64,000 nt of DNA from Sacculina carcini. Lineage: Eukaryota > Arthropoda > Thecostraca > Sacculinidae. The translations under genes were made by a program, and so were the position numbers. The stretch spans positions 6,998,501-7,062,500 of the forward strand of contig OU696588.1 in assembly GCA_916048095.2 (NCBI GenBank), read 5' to 3'. The notes under the pieces were generated by a model. It was not told the DNA's origin. It made no database searches and saw only the letters and a list, made by a program, of their open reading frames with translations. Below, in pieces: positions 7,574-53,814 of the stretch (position 1 is its first letter; every line of letters starts with the position of its first letter).

Positions 7574-7947
7574 TGTATTTGAATGTAAGCACGAAAAATA
7601 AAAAAGAACAAGAAAGCACAATTCCACACGATCACACCGCAACACAATGCACTAAATACTACTCTCTCCACCGAACAACACTAAACCACCGCACACACAC
7701 CACACTCTCACTTCACCAGTAACGCACTGCCCAACGTGCACGAGCGACCGCTGACTCCGGGCGGATACCACCCGCGCATGCATGCACTCATAGCTCGCGC
7801 TTATGCAACGCAGCTACCTCCGCGCGCGCATACAACAACGTACACAAAATCACACTCCCACGTACGCACACAAATACACATGCACGCACACACAACTATA
7901 TATAGTACAAAATACAGCACCATGCAATACACAATGAACACAATACA
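7574..7947 (-). repeat. G2 3' LTR
   Basis: 374 bp, starting TGTATT and ending AATACA on the minus strand. A G-rich tract (CAGGGGG) a few bases upstream is the polypurine tract. Confidence 0.93.
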
Positions 7948-8616
7948 TATCCCCCTGATTGTAAGAATCACTATGCCCGATTAGAATTATACACAACATA
8001 ATCATTGAACCGCGCCGGACGCTGACTCTGTCGCTGTGGTCGCGTCTGCTGATGACCGCTACTCGCCGGACCAGTCTCGGCAGTCCTCTCACCATACACC
8101 ATGACGGCAGGCTCGCCGTCGTCCGCCACGTCACCGCTCGCCTCGACCAATGAGTTCGTACCGCCACCGTTCTCCGTCTCCGCCCGTGGTCTGACATCAC
8201 CCACTTGCCTGTTGATGCCATTGACGGCGACAACGAGGTCTGACACGACACTTGTGACGGTACCCCTGCGACCGACAGCATCACACCTATCTCCGCGCTG
8301 CCTGACCCAGACAGGATCGCCAACCTCATAATCGCAGCCACGAACAGATGTGCTGCGCTGTCGCGGGAGTTCATCACGCATTCGCACTCTGTATCGATAC
8401 ACACAATCAACAGGTCTGCGACCGGCGTCATCGCTTGGCGTCAAATTGTGCAGCATCACAGCCTCTCTCACACTGCACTGTTTTCTCGCAACAATGGTCT
8501 TCACTGTTCGATGCGATCTCCCCGTTATGCCGTTTCCTTCTGGGCGAAAAGCACACCGATATGGAATGTTCACACCCCAACGTTCCATCGCCCGCACAAA
8601 AGCCTGTCCACTAAAA

Positions 8617-11885: not shown

Positions 11886-11897
11886 GGCCGGTTAGCT
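11886..11897 (-). other. G2 primer-binding site complementary to tRNA-Ile nt 1-12
   Basis: Immediately after the LTR the minus strand reads AGCTAACCGGCC, the exact complement of GGCCGGTTAGCT, the first 12 nt of the common animal tRNA-Ile(AAU). There is no TGG, so pairing with a 3' CCA end is excluded. The match ends exactly at tRNA nt 1. Confidence 0.65.
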
Positions 11898-12271
11898 TGT
11901 ATTTGAATGTAAGCACGAAAAATAAAAAAGAACAAGAAAGCACAATTCCACACGATCACACCGCAACACAATGCACTAAATACTACTCTCTCCACCGAAC
12001 AACACTAAACCACCGCACACACACCACACTCTCACTTCACCAGTAAAGCACTGCCCAACGTGCACGAGCGAACCTTGACTCCGGGCGGATACCACCCGCG
12101 CATGCATGCCCTGATAGCTCGCGCTTATGCAACGCAGCTACCTCCGCGCGCGCATACAACAACGTACACAAAATCACACTCCCACGTACGCACACAAATA
12201 CACATGCACGCAAACACAATTATATATAGTACAAAATACAATACCATGCAATGCACAATATACATAATACA
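11898..12271 (-). repeat. G2 5' LTR
   Basis: 374 bp and the partner of 7574-7947. On the minus strand it ends at 11898, and the primer-binding site follows directly. Confidence 0.93.
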
Positions 12272-12276
12272 ATCAT

Positions 12277-18631: not shown

Positions 18632-19053
18632 TGATCAAATCGACATTCGCACGTAATTTTGTATTTACAGGACGAATGATATTATCTGAAACAGAATCAA
18701 AACATAACCAATCAAATACATAACATAACATGACGTTTACCATAACCCGGTCATGTTATGGCAATGTAAACCATAACTCAATTCAGTTTACAACAAACCA
18801 GTATTGAATATGTGAAACATCCGTCTATAGTATAGACACAAAAATGCTAATCAGTAAAATAAACACATTTAACCTGATTGCAAAGCCTACACGAAACTTA
18901 CACAAACGAAAGTGCACTTGGCAACGCAATGGCGGATAGTCAGTGAACGAATGCCGCCATGTTTCGTGACTTGTGGTTGCGACCTTGACCATCGTATAGT
19001 TTGCAGTGTCTCCGCTAGAGGCGCTGCCCGGTGACCCTGACTGATATCTAACA
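18632..19053 (-). repeat. G3 5' LTR
   Basis: Identical to 13298-13719. Followed by TSD AACAC and the interrupted minisatellite. Confidence 0.96.
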
Positions 19054-35626: not shown

Positions 35627-36023
35627 TGTGAGTTGTGAGTTGTTGGCGTTAGCTATGTATGTTATGTGTGTGTCTGTGAATCTTGAGTGATGCATGTGAG
35701 AGGAGCGCACGCTGCATATGCACGTGCGTTCGTTGAGTTTTGACGAGACGCTGAGTTTGCAGCGCGCGGCGGAGCGTGAGACCATCCTTGCACTTGTTTG
35801 TATGTTCGGGTGTTGGCTGTATCGAATGTCGTCTTATAGTGTGAATGGGGATTGCGTCAGTGAGCTGACAGAGTGTGTCGTGTGTGGTGGTGTTAGAGAG
35901 CGAGTTGCGCGTGTGTGCATTGTGTTTGATATTTCTGCGTTGTTGCTTGGTGTTCTTCGTTTCTTCATTGTTTATCAGCTTTAATACATTCTGGAATAGT
36001 TTCGTTCGGCTTCACCTTTTACA
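35627..36023 (+). repeat. G7 5' LTR
   Basis: 397 bp, TGTGAGTTG to CTTTTACA. Confidence 0.95.
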
Positions 36024-36035
36024 AGCTAACCGGCC
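36024..36035 (+). other. G7 primer-binding site complementary to tRNA-Ile nt 1-12
   Basis: AGCTAACCGGCC directly follows the LTR, identical to the G2 site. The two elements diverge at the very next base (AAATTTG against CTTCCG), which marks the functional 12-nt limit. Confidence 0.65.
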
Positions 36036-39345: not shown

Positions 39346-39742
39346 TGTGAGTTGTGATTTGTTGGCGTTAGCTATGTATGTTATGTGTGTGTCTGTGAAT
39401 CTTGAGTGATGCATGTGAGAGGAGCGCCCGCTGCATATGCACGTGCGTTCGTTGAGTTTTGACGAGACGCTGAGTTTGCAGCGCGCGGCGGAGCGTGAGA
39501 CCATCCTTGCACTTGTTTGTATGTTCGGGTGTTGGCTGTATCGAATGTCGTCTTATAGTGTGAATGGGGATTGCGTCAGTGAGCTGACAGAGTGTGTCGT
39601 GTGTGGTGGTGTTAGAGAGCGAGTTGCGCGTGTGTGCATTGTGTTTGATATTTCTGCGTTGTTGCTTGGTGTTCTTCGTTTCTTCATTGTTTATCAGCTT
39701 TAATACATTCTGGAATAGTTTCGTTCGGCTTCACCTTTTACA
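39346..39742 (+). repeat. G7 3' LTR
   Basis: 397 bp; the purine tract AAGGGGGGA ends at 39345. Confidence 0.95.
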
Positions 39743-40091: not shown

Positions 40092-40968
40092 AGTGTTTCT
40101 TCTCCAAGCATGAATACACAGTATGAATGAAATTCATTATGGCTGTTTGTGTAGACCGCTTCTCTCGGAAACCATATTGGTTATCAGTAAGTATGTGATT
40201 GCTTTCCAAATAGCTCTTTAATCGTCTCGAAATCGCTCTTTCTTCAATTTAACTGAATACAGGCAAAATCGATATTGGGCGATAAATGTTTATATCAGCA
40301 TCATTTCCTTTTTTAATATTGGTATGACTTTAGCCGTTTTCAACTGACGAGGAAATACCCCGTTTTTGATAATCAAATTGACGATATGAGTCAGAGGATG
40401 TGCAATTATGTGAGCTACACGCTACAATTACAATTATCAAATATTAATAATTATATACAACTACAATTATGTGAGCTTAACACATTGGGCGAGATATCAT
40501 CATAACCCGTACTTTTGGTATTAAGCTGTCTCAAATATCCATAGATCTCAGGGCAACTGACGGGTGCGAGGAACATATAAAATGAAGGAGAGATGTTCAT
40601 GTACCATAGATGCTCTACGAGATGCTCTATAGATACTCGTACATTATTATCCTGGTAGCTATCTGCTGCTACACTCACAAAATGTTCGTTGAATTTTTCG
40701 GGGATATTCAGACAATCGGGTTCCAGTTTTATTGTAGAGTTTTTGATCCACGTTCTACCAACAATTGAATTGACTATTTTCCAGTGTGTTTTGGTATCTC
40801 CTTAACTATCCTCCAGCTGATTTTTGAAGTAGTCACTACTAGCAGTTCTCAATTTTGATGTCAGCTGATTTCGAAATTTCTTATATGCTTTCTCATAAGT
40901 AATGGGCCATTTTCGAGCCAAACGCTCTAACCTGTACTTTTCCTTTATATTCTTCTTCAGTTCATGTG
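40092..40968 (-). pseudogene. LINE-b ORF2: linker and first RT blocks, degraded
   Basis: Minus-strand pieces: ITHELKKNIKEKYRLERLAR, KFRNQLTSKLRTASSDYFKN, SVAADSYQDNN, TKSTGYDDISPNVL and DNQYGFREKRSTQTAI. This is the segment between endonuclease and RT plus RT blocks 1-2 of a CR1/Jockey-like LINE. It ends KKHSV, which continues VGVFMDLTKA on the far side of LINE-c. Stops and frameshifts are frequent. Confidence 0.83.
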
Positions 40969-41407
40969 TTATTGTGAGCGGAAGATAGGCAGTACACGGT
41001 AGAGTTGAATGTGTCATATTTCAGTGTGAGAGGAGAGGCGCTAGTTGGTTGTGCGTCCATGAGTGTATGTCTGTCTGTTGTATTAGCACGAGGGGTTCGT
41101 GCCTAGAGGCGTCGAGGCGCGTATGTCTGTATGTGGAGTATACAGGGAGTCGCGAGGGGTGTTCGTTCGTGCGTGGTCGTTGTTGTGCGTAGTGCTTGAG
41201 TCTGCGATGTCTGATTGTATTGTGAAGGTGTCAGTAGAGTAGTCTGTGTGTGAGAAGTGTACGTTCGTGTCAGGAAGAAATTACTACTGGTTAGTGCTTC
41301 AACTCATTTATCTATTTCTACTGTTTGCTTTGCTATTATCAATATATCACTTGTGTTTGGGCCTGCGTCTTGATTATCCAACAGTTATATGAGGACTTTT
41401 GTTTGAT
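40951..41407 (+). repeat. 457-bp duplication, left copy
   Basis: Contains 23 bp of LINE-b, the solo LTR and about 20 bp more LINE-b. Repeated at 46223-46680 with about one substitution and one indel. Confidence 0.9.
40974..41383 (+). repeat. Solo LTR inside LINE-b
   Basis: 410 bp beginning TGTGAGCGGAAG and ending TTATCCAACA, flanked by TSD GTTAT (40969-40973 and 41384-41388). Removing it joins the LINE linker as SPH|ITHELKKN. It has no internal region, so it is a solo LTR left by recombination; orientation is assumed plus. A second copy lies at 46246-46656. Confidence 0.8.
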
Positions 41408-41414
41408 GTTATGA

Positions 41415-41837
41415 TGTTGTGTTGTGTATTGTGTTTGTATTGTGAGAGAGATAGCGCGAGTAAGTGAGTGAGTGTGTGTGTGTGTGTGTGTGTATGCGTG
41501 TGTGCTCTTGTCGTAGTTAGTATAGCTAACAGTGTGTATTGTTTGTGTGATTCGCGCTCGCTTCGTTTAGTTCACTAGATGTGCGTGAATGTGTATGTAC
41601 ATGTGTGTGTGTGTGTGCATGTGTGTGTGTGTGTAGGGGAGTGAATTTGATATGCGTAGAGGACGGTGGTTGTGTGTGAGCGGTGGGTAACAGCGTTGCG
41701 TGGTAGCTGGGTGATATAGTGATCGTGTGGTGTGATTGTGATTGTGGTGTGTGATAGAGTGATCGTGGTGTGTGCGATAGTGTTGCGTGGTTGTGTGCGT
41801 TCGTATATTTCTACATACATTTTTTTTCAATATTACA
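41415..41837 (+). repeat. G8 5' LTR
   Basis: TGTTGTGTTG to AATATTACA, with GT tracts at 41469-41493 and 41601-41634. Confidence 0.93.
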
Positions 41838-41849
41838 AGCTATTTCGGC
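41838..41849 (+). other. G8 primer-binding site complementary to tRNA-Phe nt 1-12
   Basis: AGCTATTTCGGC directly after the LTR is the exact complement of GCCGAAATAGCT, the first 12 nt of animal tRNA-Phe. The gag ATG follows 6 nt later, so there is no room for a conventional site. Confidence 0.7.
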
Positions 41850-41855
41850 TACAAT

Positions 41856-42647
41856 ATGGCATCCAGTGAACATAAATGTGAAGTATCGGTGCCAAACAAA
41901 GCGAGTGAGGACCGTGTGTTGCTGCCAGCCGGCCCATTTGACGCGAGGTGCATCGCAGAATATGATGGCACATCAGACATCGTAGAGTGGTTTACCAGAG
42001 CTGATGCAGTGTGCCAGTTACAAAGAGTTCCTCTGGTCTCAGTCATACCACTCCGACTGACAGGTGGTGCGTTCAGCGTGTGGTCAGAACTGCCTGCAGA
42101 TAGTCGGCTTTCTTTGGAGTCAGTGCGAGCTGCGTTATATTCTGCATTTGCTCTAGACCAGCACGCAGCCTACGAACAGTTTGCTGCAAGACGGCTACAC
42201 ATGGGCGAGTCTGTAGATGTGTTTTTGTCTGACCTTCGTTGTCTCGCTAGTCTTTTTGGGGGAGTTCCCGATCGAGTTTTGATGTGTGCGTTTGTGGCTG
42301 GACTACCAGATGCTGTGCGACAGATAATTCGCGCGGGCTCTCGAGCTGATAATTTGGGTATGCAGGATGTGCTAGTGAGATCTCGCGCCATTCTCAGCGA
42401 TCGCGCTATGACAACAGCTTTTGGTGGAGCAGGCTCAGCGTCTAGTCAACCAGAAGATGATGCTACGAAGATACCTACGGCAAAGACTTCTTTGTCAAGG
42501 CGAATTGATGATTCGCAGCGGACACATCGACTGGATCGTAGATGTTGGAATTGTGGGAGAATCGGTCACCTTGCATTTGCTTGCCGCCAATCGGGAAACG
42601 CCGGCGGGAGGTGGTCATCAGCGCCAGCACCATCTCCCAAGAAATGA
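41856..42647 (+). CDS. G8 Gag
   Basis: 263 residues from the ATG 18 nt after the LTR (MASSEHKCEVSVPNK). Block DARCIAEYDGTSDIVEWF is shared with G2 and G7, followed by a capsid-like helical region and one CCHC knuckle, CWNCGRIGHLAFAC, where G2 and G7 have two. Ends SSAPAPSPKK. Upstream open codons belong to the LTR. Confidence 0.92.
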   Translation: MASSEHKCEVSVPNKASEDRVLLPAGPFDARCIAEYDGTSDIVEWFTRADAVCQLQRVPLVSVIPLRLTGGAFSVWSELPADSRLSLESVRAALYSAFALDQHAAYEQFAARRLHMGESVDVFLSDLRCLASLFGGVPDRVLMCAFVAGLPDAVRQIIRAGSRADNLGMQDVLVRSRAILSDRAMTTAFGGAGSASSQPEDDATKIPTAKTSLSRRIDDSQRTHRLDRRCWNCGRIGHLAFACRQSGNAGGRWSSAPAPSPKK

Positions 42648-45637
42648 GCGCGCGCATTGATTCCCTGCCAATTGTTGAGCTTCTTGTTGGTGGTCGCCTG
42701 TGTAGAGTGCTTGTTGACACAGGGTGTACTGATACGATCGTGCATGTATCGTGTGTTAATAAATGGCGTCGACAGCAGGTTAGTGTTGCTACATTGGGTG
42801 GCACATCTATGTTATGTATTGGTATTGGAAGTGTGGATATTGGAGTACGGAACAAAAGTTATGTCGAAGTGAATGTTTTAGTGGTGAATGAGCATCCACT
42901 CGGAGTTGACGTCATACTAGGTATGACAGGTATTGTGGCACTTGGTGGAGTGAATGTGACGTCTCCGAAGTGTGTGAGATTCGGCTGTGAGGATTCCAGT
43001 AGTGTTATCGCGGCGTCAACACGGCGTCATAGCCGTGTTTCGGATATTGACACGCCGGATTTCACCGTGCGGTATGACGATGACAGAAAGAGATGGACAG
43101 TAGTCTGGAAATGGACCGATGGTTCCGGACCTCCATGTCTGAAAAACACGACACCTCAGTACGGTGTAAAGGCCAGTATTCGGCATGAATACGATTCAGA
43201 ATTGAGCAACTGGATCAAGCGTGGATGGCTGGTAAGACATGATGAGCGTGTTCATGGAAAGCCCCGCGGTCTTGTGCCATTGATGGCCGTACATCAAAAG
43301 AACAAGGCTAAAGTCCGTCCAGTTCTCGATTATCGTGAACTGAACGACCATATCACAGCTTATACTGCCGATGCTGATGTATGCGCGGACCAGCTTCGAC
43401 GGTGGCGTCGTCATGGCAATAACCTGGCCATAGTGGACTTGAAAAGTGCGTACCTGCAGATTCACGTTGATGAGCGTCTGTGGTGTTACCAAACCGTTGT
43501 GATTTCTGGGCAGCGATATTGTCTCACCAGGCTGGGCTTTGGGATAAACATTGCACCATTAGTCATGAAGAATGTTGTGCAAGCTATACTCGCTGTTGAC
43601 CCTGCTCTTAACGCGGCTGTGTTGCCATATGTCGACGACCTTTTGGTCAATGAAGATAAGATGAGCGCTGAGAACGTGATCAAGCACTTCGGCGACTTTG
43701 GTTTAGAATGTAAGGCACCTGAGCGTGTTTCAGACGGGGCCAAATTGTTGGGATTGCAAGTGCAGCAAACTGGCAATGAATTGCAGTGGAAACGAAGCGC
43801 AAGTATCGACAACATTCCTGCGAGAATCACAAGACGCACAGTTTTTTCCTGGTGCGGTCGTTTGGTGGCTCACTTGCCTGTTTGTGGCTGGCTGCGCCCA
43901 GCGGTCGCATGGCTGAAGCGCAGAGCAAACGAGCTTTCAAAGTCGTGGGATGACGTCATTGAAGATGCTTCACTTGTCGCGCAGTTGGAGGAAATTAAAA
44001 GTAAGGTTTTGAGCAGTGATCCCGCGCATGGGACCTGGTGCGTTGCGGGTGAATGTGCACAAGTCTGGACTGACGCAAGCTCTCTTGCCGTTGGTGTGGT
44101 TATAGCCATGGGAGACGGGAGTGTTGTGGAGGATGCGAGCTGGCTCCGGAGAGATCCTGCTGCGCACATAAACATGGCCGAGCTTGACGCTGCCATACGC
44201 GGACTCAATCTGGCTGTTGCTTGGGGCTTCCGTATAGTGGAACTGTACACAGATTCTGTGATTGTGCACCGCTGGTTAGTTGACGCACTGAGCGGTCGAA
44301 ATCGTCTCAAGACGAAAGCTCAGAGCGAAATGCTAATCCGGCGAAGAATAGACCTTGTGCGTGAATTGGTCGGCGAATACAAATTGACGCTGCATGTTTT
44401 GGTTGTGAGATCTGGTGAGAATCGTGCCGACACACTCACTAGAGTACCTGAAAAGTGGCTCCGAGAACAGCGATCAACATGTGCCGCTGCTGCGATGGAA
44501 AGTCGTAATTTACCCGACATTAATGCTGCCATTTTGGATACACATGAGAGCGCAGGCCACCCAGGCATTCGGCGGACTCTGTTTTTTGCAAGACGTAAGT
44601 GCGGGAGTGGAATCAGCAGAAAACAAGTGCAGGAAGTTGTGTCTCATTGTGATGTGTGCAACTCTGTTGATCCTGCTCCGGCTAGGTGGCGTCATGGCAG
44701 GCTGGATGTCGAACAGGCGTGGTACAGGTTGGCGATTGATATCACCCATCATTCACATACGTCATATCTATCGATAATTGACTGTGGTCCGTCGCGTTTT
44801 GCGATTTGGAGAGCGTTGCGTTGGGCCGACGCTGCAACTGTCGTGCACCATCTTGAGGAGATCTTCTATGAACGTGGCGCTCCAAGTGAGATACTGGCCG
44901 ACAATGACACTATCTTCCGTGGGAGATCACTGCAGGCTCTGTGTGCTAAATGGAACGTCCATCTTCGTTTTCGTGCGGCATATTCGCCACATGGAAACGG
45001 CATCATCGAGCGGAACCATCGCTCTGTCAAAGTGATTTGTGCACGTCGGCAATGTACCGTAGCGGAGGCTGTGCACCTGTACAACATCACTCCTCGCGAT
45101 GATAAGGCGGTGACATCAGCTCCATTTGCCGGTGTTTACAAATATAAGTGCCGAGATCTTGTGACCACGCGCGATCTTCGTTGCAAACGACAAAGCAACA
45201 TCGATTTAACCGGCAACGTGCGTGGCGGGTCCAAGTTCGGAGTTGGTGATTTGGTGTGGACTCGCAGGAGAGGAACCAGATGTACTGACGTGTCGCAGCC
45301 TGGTGTCATCACCGATATTGTATCTGATTGTGTTGTTGATGTGAACGGAATGCCTCGTCATGTGAAAGACATCCGTCAACGCGGTCATCAACCGCCACTC
45401 GGTGAGTCTGATGAACCACCGATACTGGTCGGAGATGCAACCCAGCCAGCGCGTGCATCTACACCAGTGTCTTCAGGGGACGGTGACATTGGAACTGATG
45501 AGTTGTCAGGAGCTGTACCATCAGGCGGCTCAGAAGTAACGCCAGTTGGTGAGACCCAAGCAGTGACGACGCAGTTGAGAAGGAGTGAACGGGTGCGACG
45601 TGCTCCCGCTCGTTATTGCTGCGAGAATAGGTCGTGA
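42542..45637 (+). CDS. G8 Pol (protease, RT, RNase H, integrase)
   Basis: Open for 1,031 codons; translation should enter by -1 frameshift at 42593-42599. Protease VLVDTGCTDTIV. RT: VRPVLDYRELND, VDLKSAYLQIHV and YVDDLLV. RNase H: VWTDASSLAVGVV, NMAELDAAI, LYTDSVI and NRADTLTR, with the unusual HINMAEL spacing of this clan. Integrase: AGHPGIRRTLFF and CDVCNS zinc ligands, then Asp (IDITHH), Asp (LADNDT) and Glu (GIIERNH). The C-terminal module VWTRRRGTRCTD ... VNGMPRHVKDIRQR is shared with G2, G7 and G10. Cuts DNA and inserts the element after cDNA synthesis in Gag particles. Confidence 0.95.
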   Translation: MLELWENRSPCICLPPIGKRRREVVISASTISQEMSARIDSLPIVELLVGGRLCRVLVDTGCTDTIVHVSCVNKWRRQQVSVATLGGTSMLCIGIGSVDIGVRNKSYVEVNVLVVNEHPLGVDVILGMTGIVALGGVNVTSPKCVRFGCEDSSSVIAASTRRHSRVSDIDTPDFTVRYDDDRKRWTVVWKWTDGSGPPCLKNTTPQYGVKASIRHEYDSELSNWIKRGWLVRHDERVHGKPRGLVPLMAVHQKNKAKVRPVLDYRELNDHITAYTADADVCADQLRRWRRHGNNLAIVDLKSAYLQIHVDERLWCYQTVVISGQRYCLTRLGFGINIAPLVMKNVVQAILAVDPALNAAVLPYVDDLLVNEDKMSAENVIKHFGDFGLECKAPERVSDGAKLLGLQVQQTGNELQWKRSASIDNIPARITRRTVFSWCGRLVAHLPVCGWLRPAVAWLKRRANELSKSWDDVIEDASLVAQLEEIKSKVLSSDPAHGTWCVAGECAQVWTDASSLAVGVVIAMGDGSVVEDASWLRRDPAAHINMAELDAAIRGLNLAVAWGFRIVELYTDSVIVHRWLVDALSGRNRLKTKAQSEMLIRRRIDLVRELVGEYKLTLHVLVVRSGENRADTLTRVPEKWLREQRSTCAAAAMESRNLPDINAAILDTHESAGHPGIRRTLFFARRKCGSGISRKQVQEVVSHCDVCNSVDPAPARWRHGRLDVEQAWYRLAIDITHHSHTSYLSIIDCGPSRFAIWRALRWADAATVVHHLEEIFYERGAPSEILADNDTIFRGRSLQALCAKWNVHLRFRAAYSPHGNGIIERNHRSVKVICARRQCTVAEAVHLYNITPRDDKAVTSAPFAGVYKYKCRDLVTTRDLRCKRQSNIDLTGNVRGGSKFGVGDLVWTRRRGTRCTDVSQPGVITDIVSDCVVDVNGMPRHVKDIRQRGHQPPLGESDEPPILVGDATQPARASTPVSSGDGDIGTDELSGAVPSGGSEVTPVGETQAVTTQLRRSERVRRAPARYCCENRS
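42593..42638 (+). promoter_or_regulatory. G8 -1 ribosomal frameshift signal
   Basis: GGGAAAC (42593-42599) in gag phase as G-GGA-AAC. After a 6-nt spacer GGGAGGTGG (42606-42614) pairs with CCATCTCCC (42630-42638) with one G-U pair and a 15-nt loop. The loop (CATCAGCGCCAGCA) is nearly that of G2, while the stem differs on both arms. Confidence 0.78.
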
Positions 45638-45795
45638 TTTTGTGTGGTGTTGTGTATTGTGTACTGTTGTTGCCTTTATTAAGTTTTGTCTGCGTTTAGC
45701 TGGGCCATCGTTGGTCGTGAAATGTTTTGCCAGGATTTTGCTTCGCATTTTTTATTTTAATTGTTTGTATTTGTTTCTTTGGAAACAGGCGGAGG

Positions 45796-46222
45796 TGTTG
45801 TGTTGTGTATTGTGTTTGTATTGTGAGAGAGGTAGCGCGAGTAAGTGAGTGAGTGTGTGTGTGTGTGTGTGTATGCGTGTGTGCTCTTGTCGTAGTTAGT
45901 ATAGCTAACAGTGTGTATTGTTTGTGTGATTCGCGCTCGCTTCGTTTAGTTCACTAGATGTGCGTGAATGTGTATGTGCATGTGTGTGTGTGTGTGTGTG
46001 TGCATGTGTGTGTGTGTGTAGGGGAGTGAATTTGATATGCGTAGAGGACGGTGGTTGTGTGTGAGCGGTGGGTAACAGCGTTGCGTGGTAGCTGGGTGAT
46101 ATAGTGATCGTGTGGTGTGATTGTGATTGTGGTGTGTGATAGAGTGATCGTGGTGTGTGCGATAGTGTTGCGTGGTTGTGTGCGTTCGTATATTTCTACA
46201 TACATTTTTTTTCAATATTACA
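45796..46222 (+). repeat. G8 3' LTR
   Basis: 427 bp; purine-rich GGAAACAGGCGGAGG directly precedes it. Confidence 0.93.
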
Positions 46223-46680
46223 TTCTTCTTCAGTTCATGTGTTATTGTGAGCGGAAGATAGGCAGTACACGGTAGAGTTGAATGTGTCATATTTCAGTGT
46301 GAGAGGAGAGGCGCTAGTTGGTTGTGCGTCCATGAGTGTATGTCTGTCTGTTGTATTAGCACGAGGGGTTCGTGCCTAGAGGCGTCGAGGCGCGTATGTC
46401 TGTATGTGGAGTATACAGGGAGTCGCGAGGGGTGTTCGTTCGTGCGTGGTCGTTGTTGTGCGTAGTGCTTGAGTCTGCGATGTCTGATTGTATTGTGAAG
46501 GTGTCAGTGGAGTAGTCTGTGTGTGAGAAGTGTACGTTCGTGTCAGGAAGAAATTACTACTGGTTAGTGCTTCAACTCATTTATCTATTTCTACTGTTTG
46601 CTTTGCTATTATCAATATATCACTTGTGTTTGGGCCTGCGTCTTGATTATCCAACAGTTATATGAGGACTTTTGTTTGAT
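46223..46680 (+). repeat. 457-bp duplication, right copy (includes second solo-LTR copy at 46246-46656)
   Basis: Begins exactly at the end of the G8 3' LTR and ends GTTTGAT, then continues into LINE-b. Together with 40951-41407 it brackets G8 instead of a short TSD. Confidence 0.9.
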
Positions 46681-46683
46681 TTT

Positions 46684-47269: not shown

Positions 47270-48053
47270 TGTGGCGTATTTTGTATTGATTGTCGTTGTA
47301 TTATTTTAGTTTATGCGTTGCATGTTTATGTTGTGCGTATTAAGCGTGCCTTATGTGTGTGTGCGTGTGTTTGCGTTATATGCGTTGCTTGTTTGTTTCA
47401 TTGCATAAATTCATTTCATTTTATAAATGTACACACTTTGCAATATGTTTTTATGTATGTTCGCACCGTGCACACCAACGGATGTGTTATTTTCGTCGCC
47501 TATTTGCGCCGTGTGTTTACGTCGCCGTCTGGCTATGTCGTGTATGTGTCGCGCTGTATATCCGCGCCGCCTGTGTACTTGTGTCTCTCTGTCTGAGCCG
47601 CTTGTGTGCGCTGCCCATTCTCCACGCAAGCCGGCGGAAGTGCTACTATGTGTTCACACCACCCACGACGATGGTAGTCCAGCTATTTCCCGCGACAATT
47701 CACACGACTGTTTTGCTCAGACGTCGCACGGCACGTACCAGACGGTCACGTGACCGGTGTCCTACATGGAGTGAAGGGATTCCGGCTGGTGCTACAGGTG
47801 TTGGACAAGTCAGTCGAGAATAGTGCGTGCTGTCATACAGTGCTAGAGTGTTCGCTCGCTTCATTGTGTGCCCGCTACTTATTCGTACTCCCCGCGTATT
47901 CGTGTTCAGCCGCTGCGGGTATCGTATCTTATTGTATTGTTTCGTAATTGTAATTATGTATTAATGTTATGTCAATGTGTGAATGTAATATATAGTTGAT
48001 TTACTAATTGTTTTCTATGCATGTTTAACCGTACTTAACAAGTGTAGTTAACA
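47270..48053 (+). repeat. G9 5' LTR
   Basis: Starts TGTGGCGTA, ends GTAGTTAACA. Lacks a segment present after GCGTA in the 3' LTR. Confidence 0.93.
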
Positions 48054-52966: not shown

Positions 52967-53814
52967 TGTGGCGTACACACTTGTTCACACACACATGTTT
53001 CTTTTCATATTGTTTTTATTTTGTAATGATTGTCGTTGTATTATTTTATTTTATGCGTTACGTGTTTATGTTGTGCGTATTAAGCGTGCGTTATGTGTGT
53101 GTGTGCGTGCGTTTGCGTTATATGCGATGCGTGTTTGTTTCATTGCATAAATTCATTTCATTGAATAAATTCACACACTTTGCAATATGTTTTTATGTAT
53201 GTTTGCACCGTGCACAACACCGGATGTGTTATTTTCGTCGCCTATTTGCGCCGTGTGTTTACGTCGCCGTCTGGCTATGTCATCAAAGTCTGGCTATGTC
53301 GTGTATGTGTCGCGCTGTATATCCGCGCCGCCTGTGTGCTTGTGTCTGTCTGTCTGAGCCGCCTGTGTGCGCTGCCCATTCTCCACGCAAGCCGGAGGAA
53401 GTGCTACTATGTGTTCACACCACCCACGACGATGGTAGTCCAGCTATTTCCCGCGACAATTCACACGACTGTTTTACTCAGACGTCGCACGGCACGTCCC
53501 AGACGGTCACGTGACCGGTGTCCTACATGGAGTGAAGGGATTCCGGCCGATGCTACAGGTGTTGGACAAGTCAGTCGAGAATAGTGCGTGCTTTCACACA
53601 GTGCTAGAGTGTTCGCTCGCTTCATTGTGTTCCCGCTACTTATTCGTACTCCCCGCGTATTCGTGTTCAGCCGCTGCGGGTATCGTATCTTATTGTATTG
53701 TTTCGTAATTGTAATTATGTATTAATGTTATGTCAATGTGTTAATATAATATATAGCTGATTTACTAATTGTTTTCTATGGATGTTTAACTGTACTTAAC
53801 AAGTGTAGTTAACA
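52967..53814 (+). repeat. G9 3' LTR
   Basis: 848 bp, preceded by the purine tract GAGGAGGGGGCTCC. Confidence 0.93.

Follow-up and report, generated by a model that had tools for sequence, protein, structure and literature searches.

The window analysed here, a 64,000-nt stretch of DNA from Sacculina carcini, contains at positions 41415-46222 an LTR retrotransposon, G8, with the following layout.

41415..41837, plus strand: 5' LTR (TGTTGTG...ATATTACA), a direct repeat of 45796-46222, 97.7% identical
41838..41849, plus strand: putative primer-binding site of G8, AGCTATTTCGGC, complement of tRNA-Phe nt 1-12
41856..42647, plus strand: gag-like frame of 263 aa with one CCHC zinc knuckle, its ATG 18 nt from the LTR
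42542..45637, plus strand: pol frame, overlapping gag in a different frame
45781..45795, plus strand: purine-rich stretch directly before the 3' LTR, a putative plus-strand primer as read from the sequence
45796..46222, plus strand: 3' LTR, direct repeat of the 5' LTR

The LTRs measure 423 bp (5') and 427 bp (3'). Domain matches in pol comprise a protease-like domain, RT, DUF7047, RVT_3 RNase H, H2C2 and an integrase core, with the protease and integrase-core matches slightly below the Pfam cut-off and DUF7047 lying between RT and RNase H. The order protease-RT-RNase H-integrase, together with a gag carrying a CCHC motif, is of the Ty3/gypsy type. LTR termini in the clade to which G8 belongs read TGT...ACA, and G8 too has TG...CA ends. 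A 5-bp target duplication is absent at G8 itself; about 460 bp of flanking DNA is doubled around the element in direct orientation (40950-41410 and 46223-46683, 99.4-99.6% identical), whether through an exceptionally long duplication or through rearrangement at a later stage. Elsewhere in the window, positions 47277-48053 and 53017-53814 form an 800-bp direct repeat (93.5% identical) to which no identity was assigned.

The 5' LTR of G8 ends in ...CAATATTACA, and AGCTATTTCGGC adjoins it without a gap at 41838-41849. Human tRNA-Phe-GAA begins GCCGAAATAGCTCAG according to PMC11706605, and AGCTATTTCGGC is the exact reverse complement of its nt 1-12, as the first-pass annotation of this DNA had claimed for animal tRNA-Phe. 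The same annotation had noted that pairing is bounded by tRNA nt 1 and, at the opposite end, by the LTR; in a comparison of the 60 nt around the site with human tRNA-Phe, the longest complementarity consists of precisely these 12 nt, counted from tRNA nt 1. It was also right that the gag ATG (41856) leaves no room for an ordinary site: TGG is absent from the 18 nt between the LTR and gag, which rules out canonical priming from a tRNA 3' end for G8. A reading of the site as a sense copy of the 3' acceptor strand was likewise rejected, for while both strand readings of tRNA-Phe are equal over 7 nt of the site, 5 nt (AGCTA) fit the 5'-strand reading only. Mammalian tRNA-Ile has a G-U pair in its acceptor stem, a second point for the 5'-strand reading.

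Across the window and the loci L031-L052 (~263 kb, most of these loci having been fetched around G8 matches), AGCTATTTCGGC was seen 15 times, preceded by ACA in 13 cases and by AAA and TCA once each, at the same LTR end. Shuffled 12-mers gave a mean of 0.02 matches each in the same ~263 kb, and the site in G8 is therefore not a product of chance. The 12-mer was exact at 27 of 30 G8-like loci and altered at the other three, a choice of loci biased by the presence of the site in the query.

A more informative comparison comes from two sister elements in the window, E36 and E12, whose relevant features are as follows.

35627..36023, plus strand: E36 5' LTR (TGTGAG...TTTTACA), target duplication CACTG
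36024..36035, plus strand: E36 putative primer-binding site, AGCTAACCGGCC, complement of tRNA-Ile nt 1-12
39346..39742, plus strand: E36 3' LTR, from the repeat alignment
11898..12274, minus strand: E12 5' LTR, target duplication ATGAT
11886..11897, minus strand: E12 putative primer-binding site, AGCTAACCGGCC, complement of tRNA-Ile nt 1-12
7574..7951, minus strand: E12 3' LTR, the aligned repeat being 1 base longer, into the target duplication

Compared with G8 over the pol piece that spans RT to RNase H, E12 has 47.9% identity (401 aa); E36 has 47.3% across 243 aa and, in addition, 64% across 50 aa. In both elements the LTR is followed directly by AGCTAACCGGCC, the complement of GGCCGGTTAGCT, which is tRNA-Ile nt 1-12 and stands at the start of mammalian tRNA-Ile in PMC5087684, on a tRNA-Ile primer. 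The Phe and Ile sites differ at 5 of 12 positions, every one of them opposite the acceptor stem, and the ACA end of the LTR and the AGCTA stretch are unchanged across the switch. This coordinated exchange of one tRNA for another is the strongest independent test of the primer-site reading, and it supports the view that the 12 nt serve as a putative binding site for tRNA.

The first-pass annotation had proposed comparing the 12 nt after the LTR among relatives of G8 with the tRNA set. An exact Phe or Ile site was found in five of six resolved lineages (G8, L031, L047/L051, E36 and E12), the L031 element being 53.5% and the L047/L051 element 42% identical to the pol piece of G8, both with an exact Phe site. 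The correspondence did not hold in the sixth, the L045/L052 element (53% over 181 aa; L045:7687-7969 with L052), in which the site AGTTATTTCGCA has three mismatches to the Phe string, owing either to decay of one copy or to another donor tRNA. A partial pol match with 36% identity at L046:1029-1340 falls outside the six. Target duplications of 5 bp, read by eye from the alignments, flank E36 (CACTG), E12 (ATGAT), L031 (CCTAG) and L045/L052 (AAATA), and fix the LTR end of these four elements at ...ACA, so that the site begins without a spacer. At its other end, the letter that follows the 12 nt differs at once among three Phe-type lineages (T, A and C). The L047/L051 element has a 1.5-kb repeat with the shared end CCGACA, the search having been bounded by the pol match, so that the length of this repeat need not be that of the LTR. 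Beside this element, L051:1-980 and L051:4121-5100 form a direct repeat of 99.5% identity, perhaps a tandem pair of elements.

Lack of a TGG site raises the question of self-priming, in which the site pairs with the folded-back 5' end of the transcript it lies on. This mode has been proposed for some TGG-less elements (PMC5006619 and PMC4600332), and Tf1 and Tj1 resemble the G8 clade in using no tRNA 3'-end site, as stated in PMC4600332. The primer-binding site of Tf1/Tj1, however, pairs with the element's own transcript, and no good partner of this kind was found in four elements of the G8 clade: inside G8, E36, E12 and L031, the best complement of the site fits at 8-9 of 12 positions, with a longest run of 6-7 nt. 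The complementarity search thus contradicts Tf1-type self-priming in these four elements, and we regard it as scarcely credible for the clade. The common mode of priming is also present in this genome, since two other elements of the window, E4 and E33, have TGG one or two bases past the LTR (ATGGCGACGAGG; AGTGGTGACCCCG). These carry LTRs and Ty3/gypsy-type RNase H and integrase domains, their RNase H being RT_RNaseH; scanning of four of their frames gave no DUF7047 match. A further Ty3/gypsy-type element, E18 (18632-19053, minus strand), has LTRs that are 100% identical and followed by TGATATTATACGTCAGTG, with neither TGG nor a Phe or Ile site.

Genome-wide, the pattern TACAAGCTAWYYSGSC, which consists of TACA followed by either site and allows 32 strings, has 1682 matches (839+843), which are not independent given that the copies are related; the reversed control gave 0+0, and ~3.7 are expected from base composition. 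Among 100 matches listed, 82 carry the Phe string, 14 the Ile string and 4 other strings (a tally transcribed by hand), the last being AATCGGCC, AATTGGCC, ATTTGGGC and ATTCCGGC, which look like decayed Phe and Ile sites. These counts bear on the notion that the resemblance to tRNA is coincidental, or that the 12 nt are a conserved signal of the element unrelated to priming. Such a signal could be suspected in the AGCTA common to both site types, with its palindromic AGCT, but two discrete strings, each complementary to a tRNA nt 1-12, make up 96 of the 100 matches listed where 32 strings were allowed, and we judge this explanation very improbable. A second pattern, TACAAGCTAVNNNGGC (TACAAGCTA[not T]NNNGGC), was designed to reveal further tRNA types; it has 15 matches genome-wide (control 2, 22 expected), 11 of them departing from the Phe string by one base. 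For comparison, tRNA 5' ends were read at 18 of 51 listed places, and none of the 15 corresponds to a different 5' end from this set. Only three of these 5' ends have a shape that TACAAGCTAVNNNGGC can match, so sites for other tRNAs may exist.

The two donor tRNAs are unequally represented in the assembly. The first 15 nt of tRNA-Ile, GGCCGGTTAGCTCAG, over which alone the host genes were matched, occur at 10 genomic places (reversed control 0; 0.3 expected), five of which lie within ~16 kb of one contig. The start of tRNA-Phe, GCCGAAATAGCTCAG, was found at no place in the S. carcini assembly, nor were there matches to two longer tRNA-Phe patterns or to a 35-place degenerate tRNA-Phe pattern with at most one mismatch. 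Human tRNA-Phe used as a DNA query of the assembly recovered only two 3' pieces, covering nt 38-72 (94%) and nt 38-67 (100%), with 5' flanks unrelated to tRNA (cf. L071, L072). Both pieces start at nt 38, which we take to be the usual border of tRNA introns. Neither the window nor L001-L051 yielded a tRNA with ARAGORN. The assembly may lack tRNA-Phe genes, or the host tRNA-Phe may differ; the Phe half of the argument consequently rests on the tRNA-Phe of other animals for the 5' start GCCGAAATAGCT, whereas the Ile half, for which tRNA 5' ends are present in the genome, is independent of this gap.

Internally deleted copies of G8 provide possible traces of the copying process. In one, L033, pol follows straight on the final base of the 12-nt site. 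Another, L034 (3740-3790), reads AGCTATTTCCCGGGTTTCGGCATGAATACG, with native pol running from TTCGGCATG and ~7 extra letters, CCCGGGT, between the primer site and pol. Across its junction, 15 nt match tRNA-Phe nt 59-73 in the sense orientation, 7 of them being native pol; no other run of at least 13 nt to tRNA-Phe occurs in L031-L052 (~199 kb, both strands). We dropped the description of L034 as a 15-nt tRNA insert, because TTCGGCA belongs to native pol and only ~CCCGGGT is extra. The junction is consistent with a template jump by way of a tRNA-Phe positioned at the site, although it is one case that was noticed post hoc.

The L034 junction enters into two alternative accounts of how the tRNA sequence is used. 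A full-length tRNA might merely be anchored by its 5' strand, with synthesis starting from some other 3' end such as a nick in the genomic RNA or another RNA. A whole tRNA retains its 3' end, as L034 may show, and Ty1 and Ty3 do make bipartite contacts with tRNA (PMC5371799). Yet in the four duplication-bearing elements the LTR stops exactly where the site begins, the place at which the 3' end of the primer must pair, and no good complementary partner was found inside four elements; anchoring of this kind is in our estimation quite improbable. Alternatively, the primer could be a small RNA of the same sequence that is not cut on the element RNA, that is, a pre-existing 5' tRNA fragment, a precursor after trimming, or an RNA transcribed from a tRNA-like repeat. 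Fragments of tRNA 5' ends are common small RNAs, and a host tRNA-Phe gene was not found by the patterns applied to the assembly, two points in favour of such a source. Against it, the limit of the site coincides with nt 1 of the mature tRNA in the case of both Phe and Ile, the match in L034 to the 3' end of tRNA-Phe suggests a whole tRNA-Phe near the site, and the absence of GCCGAAATAGCTCAG genome-wide means that no tRNA-Phe-like repeat with that start was seen. We consider a separate small RNA unlikely, if somewhat less so than the anchored tRNA.

We suggest instead that elements of the G8 clade, which are Ty3/gypsy-like, quite probably prime minus-strand DNA from a 12-nt 5' fragment of tRNA-Phe or tRNA-Ile that ends at U12. 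The primer-binding site would pair with tRNA nt 1-12, comprising the 5' strand of the acceptor stem, U8-A9 and the first three bases of the D-stem; the tRNA would be cut between U12 and C13, before or after pairing, leaving a 12-nt RNA with a 3'-OH (GCCGAAAUAGCU or GGCCGGUUAGCU) that reverse transcriptase could extend into U5. The position of the cut follows from the LTR edge, which marks the start of the minus strand: the base opposite the first A of the site is U12, which should therefore be the 3' end of the primer, and the cut would fall within the D-stem, separating nt 12 from nt 13. Plus-strand strong-stop DNA would then copy the 12 nt off the primer and run off at tRNA nt 1, so that the primer-binding site would be rewritten from tRNA in every round. 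Run-off and rewriting would together account for the sharp 12-nt limit of the site, its invariance and its switch to another tRNA. A primer ending at U12 had already been put forward in the first-pass annotation, and it gains support from the tRNA-Ile switch and from the LTR edges fixed by target duplications, the use of the fragment being what we infer from them. The two cognate 12-bp duplexes have predicted energies of -18.7 and -23.1 kcal/mol, as against -10.9 and -11.9 for the crossed pairs. Both donor tRNAs have A9 in place of a methylatable G9, and the stretch should therefore be copyable. We know of no nuclease that cuts tRNA at 12/13, and the enzyme proposed here could be of either origin, host or element. 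The internal tRNA cut of Ty5 is made by RNase P, as reported in PMC5371799.

The nearest parallels are found among elements primed by tRNA fragments. Initiator Met tRNA serves Drosophila copia after a cut at nt 39, close to the anticodon; the primer is the 5' part of the tRNA, an internal part of which pairs with a primer-binding site that abuts the LTR. Yeast Ty5 is itself a Ty1/copia element. PMC5371799 describes the copia primer as a half-tRNA and the priming of Ty5 as starting from an internal 3' end in the anticodon loop. What the G8 clade would share with copia is a primer consisting of a tRNA part made by an internal cut, and with Ty5 a start from the internal 3' end of a cut tRNA. As in both, the primer-binding site adjoins the LTR and is complementary to a part of the tRNA other than its 3' end. 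However, the tRNA is not an initiator Met tRNA cut near the anticodon, of which Ty5 uses the anticodon stem-loop: the sites of the G8 clade correspond to nt 1-12 of two elongator tRNAs, Phe or Ile, the whole 12 nt including nt 1 being paired and the cut probably falling at U12, and the domain order is that of Ty3/gypsy. The 12-nt 5'-end site thus suggests an extension of known tRNA-fragment priming, with a cut site used by no element known to us.

Other elements with unusual sites resemble the G8 clade in part. Many dictyostelid Skipper elements are likewise without a TGG site, but there a polypyrimidine stretch replaces TGG and no primer is known, according to PMC5006619. A Culex element has an atypical tRNA-related sequence right after the 5' LTR, for which its authors invoke insertion of a tRNA dimer (PMC3286476); it is set beside G8 by description only. 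Identity with Troyka is ruled out, as that group has CG...CG ends and 3-bp target duplications (PMC12440569), whereas the G8 clade has TG...CA ends and 5-bp duplications. In the open-access literature searched, we recognised no description of a 12-nt 5' tRNA priming site, and PMC11673190 and PMC9040795 gave no hit for tRNA, primer or primer-binding-site terms.

A protein search with G8 pol returned 556 homologues, and the hosts named among the 120 listed are the barnacle Amphibalanus amphitrite, the crab Portunus trituberculatus and the whipworms Trichuris suis and Trichuris muris. Scans of viral contigs and of prokaryote contigs with the RT piece revealed no relative, and an origin of the DNA from another species was rejected on these grounds. 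We are inclined to see in these elements a widespread animal clade with its own mode of 12-nt 5'-fragment priming, involving a D-arm cut at 12/13, Phe and Ile donors and a run-off primer-binding site, a view we hold with somewhat less assurance than the mechanism itself, the relatives in other animals being known from proteins alone.

LTR elements are commonly annotated through complements of tRNA 3' ends, and a clade that pairs with 5' ends would for this reason pass as lacking a primer site. If the proposed mechanism is true, it provides a further place at which reverse transcription can start, predicts that tRNA is cut precisely at U12/C13, and explains why gag starts as little as 15-31 nt after the LTR in elements of the G8 clade. 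The presence of Phe and Ile sites at ~1700 matching junctions in one genome amounts to a natural experiment on the change of tRNA. Priming from a 12-nt 5' fragment would then constitute a third kind of tRNA priming, beside that from the 3' end and that from a cut at the anticodon, and would imply a nuclease acting at 12/13, be it the host's or the element's.
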